Below are positions 39,867-48,346 of a stretch of 48,346 nt of DNA, piece by piece (within the stretch, counting starts at the first letter, position 1; each line of letters begins with the position of its first letter). The DNA comes from Polyangiaceae bacterium (lineage in GTDB: Bacteria; Myxococcota_A; Polyangia; Polyangiales; Polyangiaceae), in contig JADLFU010000131.1 of the NCBI GenBank assembly GCA_020849655.1, positions 1-48,346 on the forward strand, given 5' to 3'. Below the pieces are notes generated by a model that saw only the letters and a list, made by a program, of their open reading frames with translations, made no database searches and was not told the origin of the DNA. The position numbers were made by a program, and so were the translations under genes.

Positions 39867-39935
39867 GCTCTCTCTCGATCTCTCCAGGCGACCGACCGCC
39901 CGCGCGGGCGGAGGTTCCCCGACGGGGGGCGCGCG

Positions 39936-40226
39936 ATGACGCGCCCCGCGCGCTGCGACGCGCAGGCGCTCTCCGCGTGGCTCGCCGCGCACCCGGCGTG
40001 GGCAGAGGACGGCGACGCGCTCCGGCGCGACGTCGCGTTCGCGTCGTACGCGGCGGCCATCGCGTTCGTGGTCGCGGTCGGGTTCCTCGCGGAGCGTCGC
40101 GATCACCACCCGGAGCTCGTGATCTCGTGGCGACGCGTGGTCGTGCGCTGGACGACCCACGACGCGGGCGGCGTCACCGCCCTCGACCTCGAGCTCGCCG
40201 CGGCGACGGACGAGCTCGCGCCATGA
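39936..40226 (+). CDS. phhB: 4a-hydroxytetrahydrobiopterin dehydratase
   Basis: 96 aa. PCD/DCoH family: ALRRDVAFASYAAAIAFVVAVGFLAERRDHHPELVISW, with the conserved HHPE, then WTTHDAGGVTALDLELA. Recycles the pterin cofactor of aromatic amino acid hydroxylases, or acts as in Moco-related pterin turnover. First gene of an operon with rnc; ATGA overlap. Confidence 0.9.
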   Translation: MTRPARCDAQALSAWLAAHPAWAEDGDALRRDVAFASYAAAIAFVVAVGFLAERRDHHPELVISWRRVVVRWTTHDAGGVTALDLELAAATDELAP

Positions 40227-40909
40227 TCGATCCCGTCGCCGCGCTGTTCGCCGCGCTCGGTCAGCCCGAGGCGCCACCGGCCGCGATGGAGGCGCTCACG
40301 CACGGATCGTGGGTCAACGAGCGCGGGGCGCGGGGCGCGCGCGACTACCAGCGGCTGGAGTTCCTCGGCGACGCGGTGCTCGGCGTGTGCGTCACGGAGC
40401 GGCTGCTGCGGCTGTTCCCCGACGCGCCGGAGGGCGAGCTGTCGCGCGTGCGGTCGCTCCTCGTGTGCGCCGAGTCGCTCGCGGCCGCCGCGCGCCGGGT
40501 CGAGCTCGGCGCCGCGCTCCGGCTCGGGCGGGGGGCCGCCGCCGATCGCGACAACATGAACATCCTCGCCGACGCGCTCGAGGCGTCGCTCGCCGCCGTC
40601 TACCTGCACGCGGGGCTCGAGGGGGCGCACCGGGCGGTCGCGCGCCTCTTCGACGACGACGCGCTCGCCGCCGCGCGCCGCTTCGGCGTCGACGTGAAGA
40701 GCGCGCTGCAGGAGCTCGCGCAGCGCGAGGGCCGCGGCACGCCGAGCTACGAGCTGCTCGGCGCGACGGGCCCCGAGAACGAGCGCGTGTTCGAGATCGA
40801 GGTGTCGCTCGGAGGAGCCCCCTTGGCGCGCGGGCGGGGACGATCGAAGAAGCTCGCCGAGCAGGCCGCCGCGAGGGCCGCGCTCGAGCACCTGGAGCCT
40901 GACCCATGA
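40223..40909 (+). CDS. rnc: ribonuclease III
   Basis: 228 aa. RNase III domain about 8-145 with RLEFLGDAVLG (Glu46, Asp50) and DNMNILADALEASLAAVYLH supplying the second Asp/Glu pair; dsRNA-binding domain about 155-225 (SALQELAQREGRGTPSYELL; RSKKLAEQAAARAALEHL). Processes rRNA and structured RNA. Flanked by 4-nt overlaps on both sides. Confidence 0.95.
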   Translation: MIDPVAALFAALGQPEAPPAAMEALTHGSWVNERGARGARDYQRLEFLGDAVLGVCVTERLLRLFPDAPEGELSRVRSLLVCAESLAAAARRVELGAALRLGRGAAADRDNMNILADALEASLAAVYLHAGLEGAHRAVARLFDDDALAAARRFGVDVKSALQELAQREGRGTPSYELLGATGPENERVFEIEVSLGGAPLARGRGRSKKLAEQAAARAALEHLEPDP

Positions 40910-41319
40910 CCCTCACGAAGCTCGTCACCCGCGCGATCGCGATCGCGATCGTCCTGTGCTGGTCGCTCGTCGCCTGGGCGGGCTCGTACCTCGATCGCTC
41001 CGCGCTGCTCGTCACCGAGTCGCGGCAGACGGTCGAGTGGCTGTTCACGCACCTCGGCGACAAGGAGCTCGCGGCGATGGCCCACCCCGTCACGCTCGCC
41101 CGCGTGAAGGCGGCGCAGCGCATGCCCGTGCCGAAGGAGGTGGTCTCGGCGCACCCGCACCTCCTCCTGTCGCTCGAGGCGGCCGAGCGCGCGGCGGCGG
41201 CGGCGGCGCGCGGCGAGAACGACAGGTTCGTCGTGCACCTGCGGCAGGCCCGCGACGAGGAGCAGATGTTCCGCCACCTGCTCGCCCAGCAGAAGCTGCA
41301 GCTGCCTGTCGTGAAGTGA
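40906..41319 (+). CDS. exported hypothetical protein
   Basis: 137 aa. N-terminal hydrophobic segment 8-26 (IAIAIVLCWSLVAWAG) serving as signal or anchor; the rest is helical and charged (TVEWLFTHLGDKELAAM; LLLSLEAAERAAAAAARGENDRF). No known domain recognised. ATGA overlap with rnc and GTGA overlap with the next gene suggest a joint role of the last two genes. Confidence 0.6.
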   Translation: MTLTKLVTRAIAIAIVLCWSLVAWAGSYLDRSALLVTESRQTVEWLFTHLGDKELAAMAHPVTLARVKAAQRMPVPKEVVSAHPHLLLSLEAAERAAAAAARGENDRFVVHLRQARDEEQMFRHLLAQQKLQLPVVK

Positions 41320-41906
41320 GGCCCTCTCGCCGCGCCGTCGCGCTCGGGGTGGGCGCGCTCCTGCTCGCCGTGGGGCCGAGCGCGTACCTCGGCCTGGCGG
41401 CGCGGGGCTTCCCCCCGGACACGACCCCGGAGGGCGCGTACCTGCGGGTCGTGCTCGCGGTGAACGACGACAAGCTGCAGGCGGCGTTCGCGTACCTCGA
41501 GACCGAGGCGCAGTGGGCGGTGTTCTCCGCGCTCGAGTACGAGCGCAAGATGGCCGAGCTCGTCGCGGGCAGCTACCCGGAGCCCGAGCGCGCGCGGCTG
41601 CTCGCCGAGCTCGACGACGCGCGCGCGGCGACCGGCGGCCCCGACTACTTCGCGCGGCTCGCGCGGCGGCTCGGGTTCACCGCGCGCCTGCGGCGAGACC
41701 TGTCGGGCATCCTCCGCGTCGAGATCGTCGGCGAGCGCGCGACCGTCGAGACCGCCCGCGGCACGAGGTACGCGCTCCGCCGCAGGGAGAACGGGATCTG
41801 GGGCCTCACGATGTTCACCGCCGAGCTGCGCGCCCGCGCCGAGCGCGCGTCGCGCGACGTCGTCGTGGTCGAGCGCGCGGCCGCCGACTACCGCGCGGCG
41901 CGATGA
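41316..41906 (+). CDS. exported hypothetical protein; 3' end duplicated downstream
   Basis: 196 aa from GTG 41316. N-terminal TM/signal at 6-28; then helical segments with aromatic residues (LQAAFAYLETEAQWAVFSALEYERKM) and a beta-rich end (ILRVEIVGERATVETARGTRYALRRR). Unknown function. Its last 16 codons (DVVVVERAAADYRAAR plus stop) recur almost unchanged at 43774-43824, with Arg to Cys in the copy, as part of the direct repeat described separately. Confidence 0.6.
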   Translation: MRPSRRAVALGVGALLLAVGPSAYLGLAARGFPPDTTPEGAYLRVVLAVNDDKLQAAFAYLETEAQWAVFSALEYERKMAELVAGSYPEPERARLLAELDDARAATGGPDYFARLARRLGFTARLRRDLSGILRVEIVGERATVETARGTRYALRRRENGIWGLTMFTAELRARAERASRDVVVVERAAADYRAAR

Positions 41907-41972
41907 CCTCGCGCGGCGGGCTCTCCCGGACACTTCACATTCATCACGACGCGGAGGTCCACGCAGCAGAAA
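41854..41972. repeat. direct repeat, left copy
   Basis: It spans the 3' end of the gene ending at 41906 and about 65 bp beyond. Positions 41856-41919 match 43774-43837 at 62 of 64 bases. The rest aligns with gaps and ends in an exact 19-mer (41951-41969 versus 43878-43896). The right part reads, on the minus strand, FLLRGPPR as at the C-terminus of the ATPase at 43870, so it is a remnant of that gene's end. Confidence 0.9.
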
Positions 41973-42091
41973 CTTCGTCGCCCTCGCACCGACGAATTTC
42001 ATGTTGGAGGCCCCCTTCGTAGCCTTGAGGATCGGGGGCTCGCGCATGGTGCGGGAGCCCACGTGAAGGCTGAGGCAGGGGAGGAAACACT

Positions 42092-42691
42092 ATGACGGCA
42101 AGCGCCAAATTGACGGGGTCGTCGCTCGCGCTGTGCGCGGCGGTCGCGGCGTGCGGCGGCGACTCTGACAGCGGCGGACCGGGTGGCCCCGCGACGGGCA
42201 GCGGCGGGAGCCCCGCCGGCGGGAGCGGCGGCGCCACGAGCAGCGTGGGGGAGGGCCTGACAGGCACGGGGATGTACGACGGAGTCGCGCTCGAGTTCGG
42301 GTGCGATGGGTCGTTCAAGGCGACGGACGGCAACATCTCGCAGTACATCGAGGTCGTGAAGGACGCGCACCTCTTCGTCGTGCAGTGTCGATCGAAGGGA
42401 GGAAGCCACCAGGTCAAGCTCGCGCTCTTGAACCCGAAGGTCGGCGACGCCAAGGACTACAAGACGGCGGACGCAGGCGTCTCGCTGGGGCCCACGATGG
42501 GCGCTCTCGAGGGCCCGAACTTCACCACCGTGAAGGTCAACCGCATCTCGGTCACCGCCGTCGATGGGACTGACCGGGTCGCCGGCACCTTCGAGGCTGA
42601 GTGGGACCAGGGCCCGGGCAACGACTGGGTGAGCGGCCCGGCGGCCAAGGTCCAGGGATCGTTCAACGCCCCCATACGAACGAAGCTCTGA
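42092..42691 (+). CDS. Gly-rich-linker lipoprotein, unknown
   Basis: 199 aa, strong ribosome site GGGGAGGA before the ATG. Lipobox VAAC (Cys21), then Gly/Ser/Pro linker 23-50, then a domain with one Cys pair (FGCDGSFKA, FVVQCRSKGG) and beta strands (TTVKVNRISVTAVDGTDRVAGTFEAEW). It lies inside the direct-repeat-bounded segment and has a less GC-dominated codon mix. It may be a polyangial surface protein of the type found at 28585. Confidence 0.65.
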   Translation: MTASAKLTGSSLALCAAVAACGGDSDSGGPGGPATGSGGSPAGGSGGATSSVGEGLTGTGMYDGVALEFGCDGSFKATDGNISQYIEVVKDAHLFVVQCRSKGGSHQVKLALLNPKVGDAKDYKTADAGVSLGPTMGALEGPNFTTVKVNRISVTAVDGTDRVAGTFEAEWDQGPGNDWVSGPAAKVQGSFNAPIRTKL

Positions 42692-42736
42692 GGGACGGCG
42701 CCGCGGGGGTGGATGGTGGCTCGCGCCGCGAGGCGG

Positions 42737-43588
42737 CTAGGGAACGTGGATGTACCGGACGGGCATGCGCTCCTCGAGTCGAGCCATCGCCTCGGCCATC
42801 CCGTTGCCATGGGTCGCGGCTCGCTCGCCGAGGCGGACGTGGAGCACGCCGTCGAACCTGCCGAGGTCGTCCATGACTTGCGCCAGCGGTGCGGCCTCGT
42901 CCTCGAGGATCTTCACCTCGAGGGCGATCGAGCAGGGCCACGGTTGGTCACGTCGCCAGACGCCGTCGGCCACCGCGGTACGCCAGAGCGCCCCGAACTT
43001 GCAGTCGGCGGGGCGCCGCGTGAAGTCGAGCCGCAGCAGCGCTTCGTCGATGACTTGTCGGACAGACTGCTCCGCAGTCCGGCTGTTCCCCGCCGCTGCA
43101 AGCTGATGCCAGTGAGCACCATCACACCGCGCTGCGGTGAACAAGTTCGTCGTGCACGCGTCGGCGAGGGCGCGGAACGCCAGAAGGTTCTCCTCACCGG
43201 GTGGCGCGCCCGCGCCCCATACCCACGCCGCGCCGCCGACCTGCTCCACCACCGCGATGCCCAGCCCGTGCCAGGCCGCAGCCTGGTACCGCTGTCGAAA
43301 TTCGCCGGGCGCCCGATCGTGCCGCCCGTCGCTCTCGAGGATCACCACGGCGTGCTCGGCGCAGATGCTCGCGCGGTAGGCTGCAGCGGCGTCGATGACT
43401 TGCGCGGAGCTCGGTCGCTGCTCGCCGCGGACGCACCCCCACTTCTTCCCCCCGAGCTCGAACGCCGCGGCACGCCAGCTCCGCCCTTTCATGGTCGACG
43501 CCGCCGGCCAACCGTTGATGATTCGAGTGTCGGGAGCCTCGTCGAGAGCGCGCTCGGCGGACCGCAGCAGCTCTTCGAGGTCGTGCAT
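42737..43588 (-). CDS. unknown protein with possible PD-(D/E)XK-like motif
   Basis: 283 aa, no signal peptide. I do not recognise the family. Seen: AVVILESDGRHDR (81-92), and the stretch RRDQPWPCSIALEVKILED (212-230), in which an Asp precedes hydrophobic-LEVK (223-226), the spacing of many PD-(D/E)XK nuclease or NERD-like cores; the evidence is weak. Cys residues are frequent. It sits within the direct-repeat-bounded segment close to mcrBC and an AAA/DUF4143-type ATPase gene, so a defence or mobile-element role is possible. CACC-GTCA-GGTG symmetry lies about 15 nt upstream of the start (43603-43614). Confidence 0.5.
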   Translation of the reverse strand: MHDLEELLRSAERALDEAPDTRIINGWPAASTMKGRSWRAAAFELGGKKWGCVRGEQRPSSAQVIDAAAAYRASICAEHAVVILESDGRHDRAPGEFRQRYQAAAWHGLGIAVVEQVGGAAWVWGAGAPPGEENLLAFRALADACTTNLFTAARCDGAHWHQLAAAGNSRTAEQSVRQVIDEALLRLDFTRRPADCKFGALWRTAVADGVWRRDQPWPCSIALEVKILEDEAAPLAQVMDDLGRFDGVLHVRLGERAATHGNGMAEAMARLEERMPVRYIHVP

Positions 43589-43869
43589 TGGTAGGCATCT
43601 GTCACCTGACGGTGGCTGTGGCAAGACCCCCCGTTCAAGCCGCGCGCGCGGACCTCCCGCACACGGCCGGTGGTCTTTCATGTCGCAGCAGCCTCGAGCT
43701 TCGACCCCGCGCGCTTCACGCGCAGCGTCCGGAGCCGCCGGACCACGTGCGAGTCGAGCTGGTTGGACTTCGTGACGTCGTCGTGGTCGAGCGCGCGGCC
43801 GCCGACTACTGCGCGGCGCGCTGACCTCGCGCGGCGGCGCCACGCGACGCTCCCGGGTCTTCACGATCC
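43589..43869. other. 281-bp gap holding the right direct-repeat copy
   Basis: No gene of its own. A short plus-strand frame through the repeat (ending at 43824) is only the copied C-terminus of the gene ending at 41906. Promoter of the 42737-43588 gene should lie at the left side. Confidence 0.5.
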
Positions 43870-43899
43870 TCACGCCCGCGGAGGTCCACGCAGCAGGAA
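43772..43899. repeat. direct repeat, right copy
   Basis: Partner of the left copy. It begins within the gap and runs into the 3' end of the ATPase gene (43870 onward). Identity is high in the first half (62/64), lower in the second with small gaps, which indicates an old duplication. Confidence 0.9.
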
Positions 43900-45111
43900 C
43901 TCCTGCCACGACGCCGCCTCGAACCCCGCGCGCTCGGCCACCACTCGCGACGCATCGTCACAAAGGACGAGCGGCCGGTGCCTGGGATGTCGTCGCGCGA
44001 ACTCACCGAGGCCCCGCAGATCGGCGGCCGAGATCCGGCCGGTCTTCACCTCGATGGCCCAGGAGCCCCAGCTCCCGTCGGTCACCGCGTCGACCTCGAG
44101 CGGCTCCTCACGCCAGTAGCTGACGCGCTGGCCGGCGTTCCACGCGTACGCGAGGCAGGCGTTCTCGACCCAGGCGCCCCAGCGCTCGGGCGCCGTCGCG
44201 CGGTCGGGGGCGCCGCGTGGGTCGACGACGGCACACAGGGCGTTGCTGAGCAGGACGAGCTTGGGCGGCGCGGCGCGCTGGCGCTCGACTCGCGCGGCGT
44301 ACTTGGGCAGCGGCGCCACGAGGAACGCCTCCTCCAGGAGCGCGAGGTAGCTCGCGATCGTCTCCAGCGCGCCCGGATCCTGGAGCTGGCCCTGGATCTT
44401 CTGGAGCGACACGATCTGCGCCGGCGCCGACGCGGCGACGCCGAACACCTGGCGCAGCAACCCGGGCTTTCTCACCGCCGCCAGCGCCAGGATGTCCCTC
44501 CCGACCGCGGGCTCGAGGATGGCGTCGCGCACGTACGCGGACCAGCGCGCCCGGTCACCTCGGAGGTCGAACGCGCCCGGGTAGGAGCCCGTCGCGACGA
44601 GCGCCTCGCACGCATCCAGCTCCGACAGCCCGAACGCCTGCGCCAGCGAGGACGCGGACCAGTGGGTGAGCGTGATGCGTTCGAAGCGACCGGCGAGGCT
44701 CTCCCTCGAGCCATGGGCGAGCTTGAGCGCGGAGGATCCCGTGGCCACGACGTGCACGGGCAGCCGCCGGCGGCGCAGGCGGTCCCACTCGGCCTTCAGG
44801 TGACCGGCCCACCCGTGGAGCATGTGGGCCTCGTCGAGCAGCACGATCGCGCGCCCGGCGCTCGACGCGACCGCCTCCGCGCGGACCCACAGCCGCTCCC
44901 AGAATCCCGGGAGCGCCGCCTCGGGGCCGTCCGCGGCCGCGTAGAGGGCGGCCTGCCCGTGGCTGCGCGCGAGCTCGAGCAGCAAGGTCGTCTTGCCCAC
45001 CTGACGAGGCCCGACCAGCAGCTGGATCCGCCCCGGCGGCGGCTCCGCGAGGCGGCGCGAGAGCGCGTCGCGCGCGTCGTGGAAGCCGAGGCGGAAATCC
45101 TCCGAGGCCAT
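43870..45111 (-). CDS. AAA-type ATPase with C-terminal nuclease-like domain (DUF4143 family)
   Basis: 413 aa. Walker A GPRQVGKTT (34-42), Walker B AIVLLDEAHML, sensor-like ATGSSALKLAHGSRESLAGRF. The C-terminal part has the DUF4143 features LEVDAVTDGSWGSWAIEVKTGR, an Asp...Glu-x-Lys core of nuclease-like fold. Members are widespread, often single genes of unclear, possibly defence- or mobile-associated, role. It is 69 bp past the mcrC stop on the same strand, but has its own consensus-like promoter ending exactly at the ATG. The C-terminal codons are part of the right direct repeat. Confidence 0.85.
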   Translation of the reverse strand: MASEDFRLGFHDARDALSRRLAEPPPGRIQLLVGPRQVGKTTLLLELARSHGQAALYAAADGPEAALPGFWERLWVRAEAVASSAGRAIVLLDEAHMLHGWAGHLKAEWDRLRRRRLPVHVVATGSSALKLAHGSRESLAGRFERITLTHWSASSLAQAFGLSELDACEALVATGSYPGAFDLRGDRARWSAYVRDAILEPAVGRDILALAAVRKPGLLRQVFGVAASAPAQIVSLQKIQGQLQDPGALETIASYLALLEEAFLVAPLPKYAARVERQRAAPPKLVLLSNALCAVVDPRGAPDRATAPERWGAWVENACLAYAWNAGQRVSYWREEPLEVDAVTDGSWGSWAIEVKTGRISAADLRGLGEFARRHPRHRPLVLCDDASRVVAERAGFEAASWQEFLLRGPPRA

Positions 45112-45146
45112 AACCGAATGATTATTCGAGTATGATCCAGTGTCAA
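45112..45146 (-). promoter_or_regulatory. promoter of the ATPase gene, possibly leaderless, with palindrome
   Basis: On the minus strand TTGACA (45146-45141) is followed after 17 nt by AATCAT (45123-45118), and the ATG A (45111) is 6 nt on, the usual distance to a start site; transcription may begin at the start codon. CGAAT-N4-ATTCG (45115-45128) overlaps the -10 and could be an operator. The patch is strikingly AT-rich for this window and no Shine-Dalgarno is seen. Confidence 0.5.
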
Positions 45147-45180
45147 CCCCGCGGCGGGGCCGCTCGCGCGCCGCGCGCGT

Positions 45181-46270
45181 CTAGGTGACGGTCGGGCTCG
45201 CGTGACCGGCGGCCTCGCCCTCGGGCGCCGCGATCCGCGCCACGATCTCGTGGAGCGCCGCCTCGATCCGCTGCCAGGGCCTGTCGAGGTCGAGCTCGAG
45301 CACGTGCACGTCGTGCCCGAGGAGGCGCACCCGCGTGGGCGGCACCGTGGGGCGGTCGACGGCGTACAGCAGCATACAGCAGCACCCCGGTCACCCGGTC
45401 ACCCGTGGCGCGGAGGTTCGCCAGGTAAGCCATCAGCTGGCACACGTCGCTCGACCGGAGCGTCGCGGCGTCGCCGAACGGCCCACGGAGCAGCGGCCGA
45501 CCGTAGCATTTCGTCTCCACCACGACCGCGTGCCCCGGGCGCCTGAGCGTGATGTCGGTGCGCAGCCCCGGCAGCAAGCCGTGGGTCTCGCCCTCGACCA
45601 CCCACCGGAGGCGCGACCGCTCGACCGTGGGGAACTCGCGCTGCTCCCGCGCCATGAACTCCCTGACGAAATCCTCGAACAGCGCTCCCATCGCGCGCTC
45701 GTCCCCCGCGAAGGCGCGAAACTGCCAGCGCCCCGCGCGGTCGTCGGGCAGCAGGCAGCGGTGGAGCAGCGCGCACACGTCGAGCGCGAGGCGGTAACGA
45801 CGGAGGTTCGAGTGCAGCTGCACACGCTTGAGATCCTGCTCAGTGACAGGGATGTCGGCGACCGTGGGCATCTCCCGCGCGACGCCGAGCAGGCCCTGTC
45901 GAAGCCCGTCGGGCAGGCTCGCGACGGAGGCGAGGCGCGTCACCGTCGCCTTCAGGATCCGGTTGTGGAGCACGTCCTCGGTCAGCTCGTCGAAGGCGCA
46001 CTCGAGCGCCCCGCGGGCGAGCGCGCCGCGGGCGACGGCGCGCGCGAGGCGGATCCTGCCGCGCGGTCGGCGCAGCTCGTCGACGTGCTCCCGGTACCCC
46101 CGGTCGAGGCGCTGTCGCAGCAGGCGTCGCGACGCCGTCAAGAGCACGCGAGCGAGGAGCTCCTCGGCGGGCCGGGCCTCCTCGGCGGCGATCTCGACGA
46201 GGTCGCGCTCCTCGAAGTGTCCCCGCGCGTAGGAGAGCAGGTAGTAGAGGTTCTCGACGCGCACCTGCAC
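45181..46270 (-). pseudogene. mcrC: mcrC, frameshifted near the 3' end by a 10-bp tandem duplication
   Basis: McrC nuclease partner of McrB, starting at ATG 46270, 3 nt after the mcrB stop. Nuclease core intact: GLLPGLRTDITL...VVVETKCY (Asp239, Glu252, Lys254), then RSSDVCQLMAYLANL and GVLLYA. At codon about 300 the frame breaks. The sequence TACAGCAGCA occurs twice in tandem (45365-45384); removing one copy restores GVLLYAVDRPTVPPTRVRLL...LDRPWQRIEAALHEI and a stop at 45181, giving 359 aa. As read it continues out of frame to 45143 (375 aa, Arg/Pro-rich tail). The catalytic part is before the break, so residual function is possible. Confidence 0.85.
45365..45404. repeat. two adjacent tandem duplications in mcrC (10 bp x2 and 8 bp x2)
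   Basis: TACAGCAGCA at 45365-45374 and again at 45375-45384; 4 bp later GGTCACCC at 45389-45396 and 45397-45404. Neither unit is a multiple of three, so slippage in either changes frame. The 10-bp duplication explains the break. Confidence 0.9.
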
Positions 46271-46273
46271 GGC

Positions 46274-48346
46274 TCACCCGTCCCTGAGCGCCCGGAGCGC
46301 CTCGCTCAGCCTCGTGGGGTTGTCGAACCAGTACTCGCGGAGGAGCGGCGCGATCTCGTGGTCGACGACGCGCCGGAACCACGCGTCGTCGTGGGCGTCG
46401 ACGCGCTGACAGAAGTAGCTGTGGCCCACCCGGAACCCGGGGCCGAGCGCCGGGTCGGAGGTGATCCGCTCGTTGAGCGCAGACAGCCGCGCCTGGATGA
46501 TGTTGCAAAGTGAAGCCTCGACGCCCCTCCTGGTGAGGTCGGCCTCGAACCGGGCCGCGCCGAACGCGGGCTCGAGGTCGAAGAAGACGAAGCGCCTGCG
46601 GAGCGCGTAGTCGACGAACGCCAGCGACCGATCGGCCGTGTTCATCATGCCGAGGACGAACAGGTTCGGTGGGACGAAGAACCGCGGCTCGCCGTCCCGC
46701 GCGTACGCGAGCGTCACGCCGTAGCGAGGATCGCGCTTGTCGGCCTCGAGGAGCGACAGCAGCTCCCCCAGGATCTTGCTGACGTTGCCCCGGTTGATCT
46801 CGTCGATGATGAGCACGTGGGGGATCGATGGGTGCTCCTGTGCGGCCTCGCAGTGACGGAGGAGCGGGCCGTCCTCGCGGCGGAAGCCGCCGCCCTCGGC
46901 CGGACGCAGGCCCTGCACGAAGTCCTCGTACGAGTACGAAGGGTGGAACTGCACGCGCTCGATCCGCGCGTCGTCCGCGCTGCCGATGAGCAAGCGCGCG
47001 AGGCGGTTCGCGACGAGGGTCTTCCCGACGCCGGGCGGCCCCTGGAGGATGAGGTTCTTCTTGTAGTGGCAGAGCGCGAGGAGCTCGCGCAGCTGGTCGC
47101 GCGTCAGGAAGAGATCCTGCTCCGCGTCCTCGAAAGTGTACGGAGCCGCGGCGATCGCGTCAACGGTCTCGGCGTCCTCGTCGACGTCGTCGGCCGCGCC
47201 GATCGCCGCGCGGATGTCCCGGAGGAGCCCGGAGTGTCGCCCGAGCTCCGTCAGCGTCTTCATCGCGAAGGGTCGGAGCCGGGGCCGCCAGTCTCCACGG
47301 CCCTGCCACTCCACGCCGCGGACGTTCGCGAGCGGGCGGGAGGGCTCATGGCGATACCCCGAGGTGACGACGCCGTGGCCGACGACGTGGTGGCGGCCGC
47401 GCTTCACGTAGACCGTGTCACCCACTTGCATGTCGCGGGCGAACTGCCAGCACGCCTTGGCGGCGTTCGTCGGGTCGGCGCCGCCAGGACGGCCCTCGCG
47501 GAGCCTCGCGCGGACGGCGTCGAGCGACGGGTACTGGAGGAGATCGCCGAGCTCGTTCCACCCGATCGCGATGATCCCGTCGCGGTGACACGCGTCCCAC
47601 TGATCGGCGTTGCGCCCGAGCGCGATCAGCCAGGCGCGCCCGCTCGCGGCCTCCTCCGGCTCGTCCGCGGCTGGCCCCGCGACGGACTCGTCGCGCTGCG
47701 TCCAGCGCAGCAGGCACTCCAGCTCCCACGACGACAGCTCGAGCGCCGCCTGCAGCCGCTGGAAGGCGATGCGAAACGCGAGGTAGTCATCCGCGACGTC
47801 GAGGTCGGTCGGATCGTAGAGGCCGTCGGCCGCGAGGGCGTCGCGCGCGGACTTGTAGAAAGGCGGCCAGGCCTCGGGCGCTTGCACATACCAGAAGACG
47901 CTGGCGAAGAGCCGCAGCCGCCCGTCTTGCGGCAGCCTGGATCCGAGCGGCGCGGACGCGCGGAGGGCCGACAGGTACCCGACGAACGCCCGCAGCGCCG
48001 CGGCCGCCGCGGCCTCGTCCTCGGGCGCCGCGAGCAGCGCCCTGAGGGCCGCGTCGGCGCGCGCGGCGTCGGGCGCGTACTTCGCGAGCTGGTTCAACAC
48101 CATCGCGCCGCTCATGCCCTTCGCGCCCAGGCTCTCCCACTCGCGCCGGGTCTTCTGGTCGAAGGTCGAACGAAGCTCCTCGAGGCTCGCCGCGCCGCTC
48201 GTGTAGCGCCCGAGCACGTCGAGCACGGCGGGGAGGATCCTCCGCCGCAGCGCGCCGCCGGTGTCGCGGTCCGCGACAGAGCTCGCGTCGGCGCGGAACG
48301 CCGCCAATCGGTCGCGCCACAGCGCCTGGCGCTGGTCGGCGTCGCC
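46274..48346 (-). CDS. mcrB: McrB-type AAA+ restriction GTPase/ATPase with EVE-like domain (5' partial)
   Basis: At least 690 aa; the frame stays open to the right edge, and upstream residues (DADQRQALWRDRL) look coding, so the start is outside. Order: N-terminal helical domain; EVE/PUA-like domain encoded at about 47290-47640 (AWLIALGRNADQWDACHRDGIIAIGWNELGDL ... GDTVYVKRG ... VVGHGVV); AAA+ domain with Walker A LQGPPGVGKT, Walker B VLIIDEINRGNVSKI and the McrB signature MNTADRS. EVE domains bind modified cytosine bases, so a modification-dependent type IV system is predicted. Followed 3 nt later by mcrC. Confidence 0.92.
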   Translation of the reverse strand, partial: GDADQRQALWRDRLAAFRADASSVADRDTGGALRRRILPAVLDVLGRYTSGAASLEELRSTFDQKTRREWESLGAKGMSGAMVLNQLAKYAPDAARADAALRALLAAPEDEAAAAAALRAFVGYLSALRASAPLGSRLPQDGRLRLFASVFWYVQAPEAWPPFYKSARDALAADGLYDPTDLDVADDYLAFRIAFQRLQAALELSSWELECLLRWTQRDESVAGPAADEPEEAASGRAWLIALGRNADQWDACHRDGIIAIGWNELGDLLQYPSLDAVRARLREGRPGGADPTNAAKACWQFARDMQVGDTVYVKRGRHHVVGHGVVTSGYRHEPSRPLANVRGVEWQGRGDWRPRLRPFAMKTLTELGRHSGLLRDIRAAIGAADDVDEDAETVDAIAAAPYTFEDAEQDLFLTRDQLRELLALCHYKKNLILQGPPGVGKTLVANRLARLLIGSADDARIERVQFHPSYSYEDFVQGLRPAEGGGFRREDGPLLRHCEAAQEHPSIPHVLIIDEINRGNVSKILGELLSLLEADKRDPRYGVTLAYARDGEPRFFVPPNLFVLGMMNTADRSLAFVDYALRRRFVFFDLEPAFGAARFEADLTRRGVEASLCNIIQARLSALNERITSDPALGPGFRVGHSYFCQRVDAHDDAWFRRVVDHEIAPLLREYWFDNPTRLSEALRALRDG

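Follow-up and report, generated by a model that had tools for sequence, protein, structure and literature searches.

Results

The window, by which we mean the whole stretch of 48,346 nucleotides that was analysed, carries in its right part two convergent genes that now lie on either side of a 1796-bp segment (41975-43770). The left gene, here called gene1 (41316-41906, plus strand), encodes a conserved but uncharacterised Polyangiales protein; Pfam and NCBIfam searches gave no match, and tblastn found it in 18 genomes of the family and order at 46-81% identity. Its downstream neighbours vary among these relatives, and the downstream sequence present here is not shared by the gene1 junctions of the 18 genomes. 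The right gene (43870-45111, minus strand) encodes an AAA_14/DUF4143 ATPase according to Pfam and is the PADLOC candidate PDC-S01, with a score of 322 bits. Relatives of this ATPase, mostly at 58-72% identity, occur in Deltaproteobacteria/Myxococcales, Acidobacteria, Planctomycetes, Verrucomicrobia and other MAGs, and it is adjoined on the same strand by McrBC-type restriction genes, namely McrC (45143-46270) and a McrB-like gene (46274-48307), which were assigned through Pfam McrBC/AAA_5 matches and together form a block from 45143 to 48307. Given the scatter of the ATPase relatives over phyla and the McrBC genes alongside, the site adjoins a horizontally acquired and probably defence-related block. 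The 3' end of McrC (45143-45405, minus strand) looks frameshifted, with short tandem duplications (acagcagcatacagcagc / ccggtcacccggtcaccc) near 45365-45405 shifting the frame and an expected-looking C-terminus (45181-45375) found in a different frame, and McrC may be inactive or phase-variable.

The segment between the two genes has a GC content of about 70%, compared with 74% in its flanks, and is missing from all relatives searched. Its two open reading frames, of 199 and 283 aa, are without Pfam or NCBIfam match, and none of its genes was found in plasmids or in IMG/VR. The first is a lipoprotein-like gene (42092-42691, plus strand, 199 aa), whose signal peptide and cysteine were judged by eye. 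It has no clear relative; the family genomes gave only weak matches (E at least 2e-4), which we attribute to signal-peptide or low-complexity similarity, and the match of 42133-42257 to many genomes likewise reflects a low-complexity, Gly/Ser-rich lipoprotein linker. The second is an uncharacterised gene of 283 aa (42737-43588, minus strand), with relatives in two other genomes among 379 (G082 and G004) at 34-36% identity. The relative in G082 sits upstream of a type I restriction-modification-like locus, and neither relative has the lipoprotein, the ATPase or gene1 nearby. As such, the proposal of an earlier note on this DNA that the same cargo might be found with the same repeats at other loci led to no further case, the 283-aa gene occurring only in these two genomes and alone. 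The protein and its relatives share the conserved motif WR.A..DG.W...IALEVK; the structural model has a pLDDT of 70 and its PDB matches are not significant, some of the weak ones being nucleases. The DG...IALEVK part of the motif is weakly suggestive of a PD-(D/E)XK nuclease-like protein.

On both sides the segment is bounded by diverged direct repeats of about 120-130 bp, in agreement with what the earlier note had claimed. When the left repeat (41853-41974, plus strand) is aligned to the right one (43771-43901, plus strand), a first block is identical at 64 of 67 positions and a last block at 24 of 25, while in the spacer between them 6 of 41 aligned bases differ and four indel events occur. 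The longest exact run is 36 bp, and the local score of the pair is 153, compared with a best score of 42 among 500 first-order Markov shuffles. The alignment and the repeat search also bear out the composition given by the note, namely that in each repeat the 3' part of gene1, which stops at 41906, is combined with that of the ATPase gene: the last 54 nt of gene1 are present in both copies, each followed by the spacer and then by the 3' end of the ATPase gene, of which the left copy holds about 25 nt and the right copy the true end. Since both copies contain both gene tails in the same order, the convergent gene1/ATPase junction predates the split. The divergence of the spacer, set against 5 differences in 80 positions without indels in the tails, is suggestive although statistically not firm, and could fit copies derived from two related, diverged junctions rather than from one duplication. 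A search of the 6.56-Mb genome, which is a draft of 307 contigs with 4% contamination, returned only weak, short and GC-rich further matches (27-59 bp, E at least 1.6e-5), so that an ordinary dispersed intergenic repeat, which the note had named as a competing origin of the flanks, is ruled out.

The one same-genus genome compared (G001) matches at 81% over 39927-41897 and is completely different from there on; it has gene1 and lacks the segment, any relic and, at the threshold used, the ATPase. An ATPase match was obtained in 16 of 184 genomes of the order, this genome included, and none of the other ATPase-bearing genomes has gene1 in the flank examined. An intact gene1/ATPase pair without insert was thus found in no relative searched, and the empty site looked for in line with the earlier note, at which gene1 would directly meet the ATPase gene, did not emerge. 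The two junction copies imply such an unsplit pair, though it was seen in no genome, and the direction of the event, insertion into a pair as opposed to duplication and rearrangement around an older segment, is therefore read from the repeats. Of the history that the note had put forward, an ancestral convergent pair split by the segment, two parts stand, namely the earlier junction, with both tails in both copies, and the absence of the segment from the relatives searched, whereas an empty site was not found.

At its right end the segment contains what is almost certainly the 3' relic of a group II intron (43589-43770, minus strand), consisting of a maturase C-terminal fragment (43770-43681) and a domain V/VI region. 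The fragment matches intron RT/maturases over 30-34 residues at 53-61% identity (E 9e-6 to 5e-8), among them that of G045 at 61% amino acid identity over 31 residues (E 5e-8), with strand and order as in intact introns. At the nucleotide level, 43598-43714 is 77% identical to another relic in the same genome, and our model R1 scores the relic at 85 bits (E 1.7e-17), the window copy itself being among the training rows of R1. The domain V model RF00029 gave no match between 40000 and 46000 of the window even at E<=1, and it is only through close relatives, by way of R1, that the decayed copy is recognised as an intron. Of three further copies in the same genome (C243, C66 and C168), too, only the 3' part is present. 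This genome also has a group II domain V-like match of another kind (G000:C241:4174-4249, L112), which at 34.8 bits did not reach the gathering score. At its 3' end the relic reads ...CTACCA, directly followed by the ATG that starts the 283-aa gene, the start of which we therefore set at 43588, and its 5' truncation at 43770 falls directly at the start of the right repeat. The statement of the earlier note that no transposase or integrase is present thus remains accurate in that the segment holds no such gene, but part of a mobile element does exist there and had been overlooked.

Intact relatives of the relic were found in G036, with eight copies about 99% alike, in G020, in G045 and in other genomes. 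They score 69-82 bits with RF02003 (GA 49) and 42-46 bits with RF00029 (GA 40) in four genomes, and their RT/maturase matches TIGR04416 with 413 bits and has RVT_1 and GIIM domains, while an HNH domain was not found by Pfam in this intron-encoded protein (IEP). The lineage is present in 30 of 184 genomes of the order (E<=1e-4) and in 16 of 379 genomes of the phylum (E<=1e-8). For all eight sites in G036 the joined flanks align, at 79-95% identity, to loci of G430, a genome of the same genus, that have no interruption there, and at base level six of the joins are gap-free and two (L136 and L139) have indels nearby. The near-identical copies in G036 and the uninterrupted sites in G430 imply that the lineage has been mobile. 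In G114, contigs C23, C35, C39, C120, C136 and others end inside the same intron family, and the copy number there is therefore probably high and underestimated. We also noted that G036 and G430 both contain dozens of copies of an approximately 85-bp sequence that lies upstream of one intron site, partly in short tandem arrays.

The position of the relic at a start codon recurs in its intact relatives. We examined the 5' ends of 16 copies, comprising the eight sites in G036 (L114, L115, L134-L139) and one site in each of eight other genomes (L196, L200, L204, L206, L207 and others). At all 16 the 5' exon has a start codon as its last triplet (15 ATG and 1 GTG), and at all 16 it contains a TANNNT box whose end lies 9-11 nt upstream of the intron. 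By comparison, the box was found at 0.5% of random positions within these loci, and 2.1% of candidate gene starts have it. In each of the 14 copies with an intact RT, the frame that begins with the host start codon continues across the 5' ribozyme region into the RT/maturase, over 560-672 codons, while the other two frames close within 33 codons. In six genomes the RT frame was free of stops throughout the first 561 nt, as against four to eight in each of the other forward frames. A similarly regular structure is seen where the intron ends, with a purine-rich, SD-like core in 30 of 34 cases, followed by ...CTACCAATG. A start codon stands at the intron end in 34 of 35 3' ends from outside the training set of the model, in 32 of them exactly at the model position. 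Because the model contained the ATG, this position is partly fitted, but the length of the open reading frame that begins there (median 223 codons, compared with 43.5 in other frames) and the N-termini it encodes are independent of the model. Inspected by eye, many of these N-termini are recognisable, for example as those of aldo/keto reductases, SDRs, glyoxalases and lipoproteins. Taken together, these regularities make it very probable that the lineage is specific for start codons as its insertion target. At one locus (G020:C5, L140 near 805) two introns stand in tandem, the second immediately behind the ATG that the first carries at its 3' end.

Discussion

Given the duplicated junction, we consider the 1.8-kb segment to be probably no mobile element but a passive insertion specific to this lineage, a scar of recombination or repair in which two genes and the remains of an intron were captured. 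In the history we favour, an ancestral convergent junction of gene1 and the ATPase gene existed first, and foreign or displaced DNA with a related junction would then have been joined to it by single-crossover (Campbell-type) integration. Alternatively, template switching during break repair, with synthesis resuming upstream of the point of departure, might have produced the same arrangement; either route would leave a duplicated junction, and the sequence does not separate the two. The intron breaks off just where the repeat begins, at 43770/43771, which points to a later deletion that shortened the intron together with a right copy of gene1 that had once been longer. The segment might also be lost by recombination across the 36-bp exact run. 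The layout agrees with the duplicated junctions left by Campbell-type integration or template switching in that a non-identical direct duplication flanks captured DNA and no enzyme is encoded; neither a donor nor an empty site from which to reconstruct the event emerged from the genomes searched.

The same abutment of intron and repeat is also what would be expected if nothing had been inserted at all, and a larger tandem duplication from gene1 to the ATPase gene had lost most of one copy by deletion, with the lipoprotein and 283-aa genes as older residents. The 283-aa gene could indeed be an old operon member, as it lies on the minus strand like the ATPase and McrBC genes. However, the left repeat ends 25 nt into the ATPase tail, and tblastn and the repeat search detected no other remnant of the ATPase gene or gene1 in the segment, and we regard this explanation as unlikely.

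More doubtful still is a site-specific integrative element that used the 3' end of gene1 as its attachment site and has since lost its integrase. Integrases can restore the tail of their target gene, which leaves a duplicated gene 3' end beside the cargo, and the layout here resembles this. Attachment cores, however, are normally short and identical at integration, whereas the spacer of the repeats has four indels and the copy enters a second gene; in addition, no integrase gene or remnant was seen, and searches revealed neither repeats around other copies of the segment nor, among relatives, an empty site. An insertion sequence or transposon fits no better, as the repeats on either side, of about 120-130 bp, are in direct orientation and no inverted pair lies at the segment ends among the pairs listed. 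The minimal element considered in the earlier note thus found no support, integrase, transposase, inverted ends and a second copy all being absent.

It is even less probable that the intron itself made the scar, through a 5'-truncated retrotransposition that was joined at 43770 to junction DNA and brought in the cargo. The intron is cut off at the very edge of the repeat and 5'-truncated copies are common in this genome, as the three other 3' fragments illustrate, but a target duplication of such size is not normal for group II intron insertion. The relic is also placed as undisturbed copies are, at a start codon, here that of the 283-aa gene, and is therefore probably older than the event. 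An assembly chimera of strain variants, for which the fragmented and slightly contaminated draft might be held responsible, is the least credible explanation, since the false joining of two orthologous junctions would not leave truncated copies separated by 1.8 kb of single-copy DNA.

While the recombination scar favoured here is in itself ordinary, and only mildly interesting as part of a defence-gene neighbourhood, the relic within it leads to mobile introns of a known kind whose target specificity seems to be new. On balance we think it likely, from the sequence patterns at its insertion sites, that a phylum-wide intron lineage homes to the promoters of leaderless genes, expresses its RT from the host start codon and provides the host gene with a new ribosome-binding site and ATG. 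In the mechanism we propose, the TANNNT boxes would be -10 elements and the host genes would be leaderless, which would place the insertion near transcript position +3 to +5, within the open-complex bubble or at its edge. The target of the intron might then be DNA that is single-stranded while the promoter complex is open, and the absence of an HNH domain from the IEP in the Pfam search is consistent with a need for single-stranded DNA. Here we put forward the promoter bubble as a hypothesis for why start codons are chosen. Once inserted, the host start codon would drive translation of the RT straight through the ribozyme, and the SD-like site and ATG carried by the intron would re-equip the host gene, which could in this way survive without splicing. 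Introns at UAAUG stop/start overlaps have been described in Azotobacter groEL and may be related to the lineage described here.

If this interpretation is true, start codons, and probably leaderless promoters, are landing sites for a group II intron, and the lineage shows how a retroelement can occupy the first codon of an expressed gene without destroying the gene. It would also offer a natural model for host-framed expression of an intron RT and for insertion that is directed by promoter DNA.

A 2015 review distinguishes three kinds of target for bacterial group II introns, namely homing sites, terminators and attC sites (PMC4424553), and insertion after terminators is reported for C-type and related IEPs in a 2022 survey, in which we found no mention of start codons as targets (PMC8919778). 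No report of a start-codon-specific group II intron was found in the open-access literature searched. The review does not name start codons among its three types; they would, if the specificity holds, add a further one, although they could also be counted as a very short homing site. Like group II introns with an RT/maturase IEP in general (TIGR04416; RF00029, RF02003), the lineage has a domain V, a D1-D4 match and the RVT_1 and GIIM domains; it differs from them in inserting after start codons beside TANNNT, in an ORF that opens with the start codon of the host gene and continues across the ribozyme part, and in ending with its own SD-like site and ATG. Class C (IIC) introns (PMC4424553, PMC8919778) come close in that their insertion, too, is guided by an expression signal rather than by a long unique homing site, and they share with the lineage the lack of an HNH endonuclease domain, judged for the latter by Pfam. 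The signal differs, however, as the introns described here are placed, judging by position, at gene starts rather than behind terminators.
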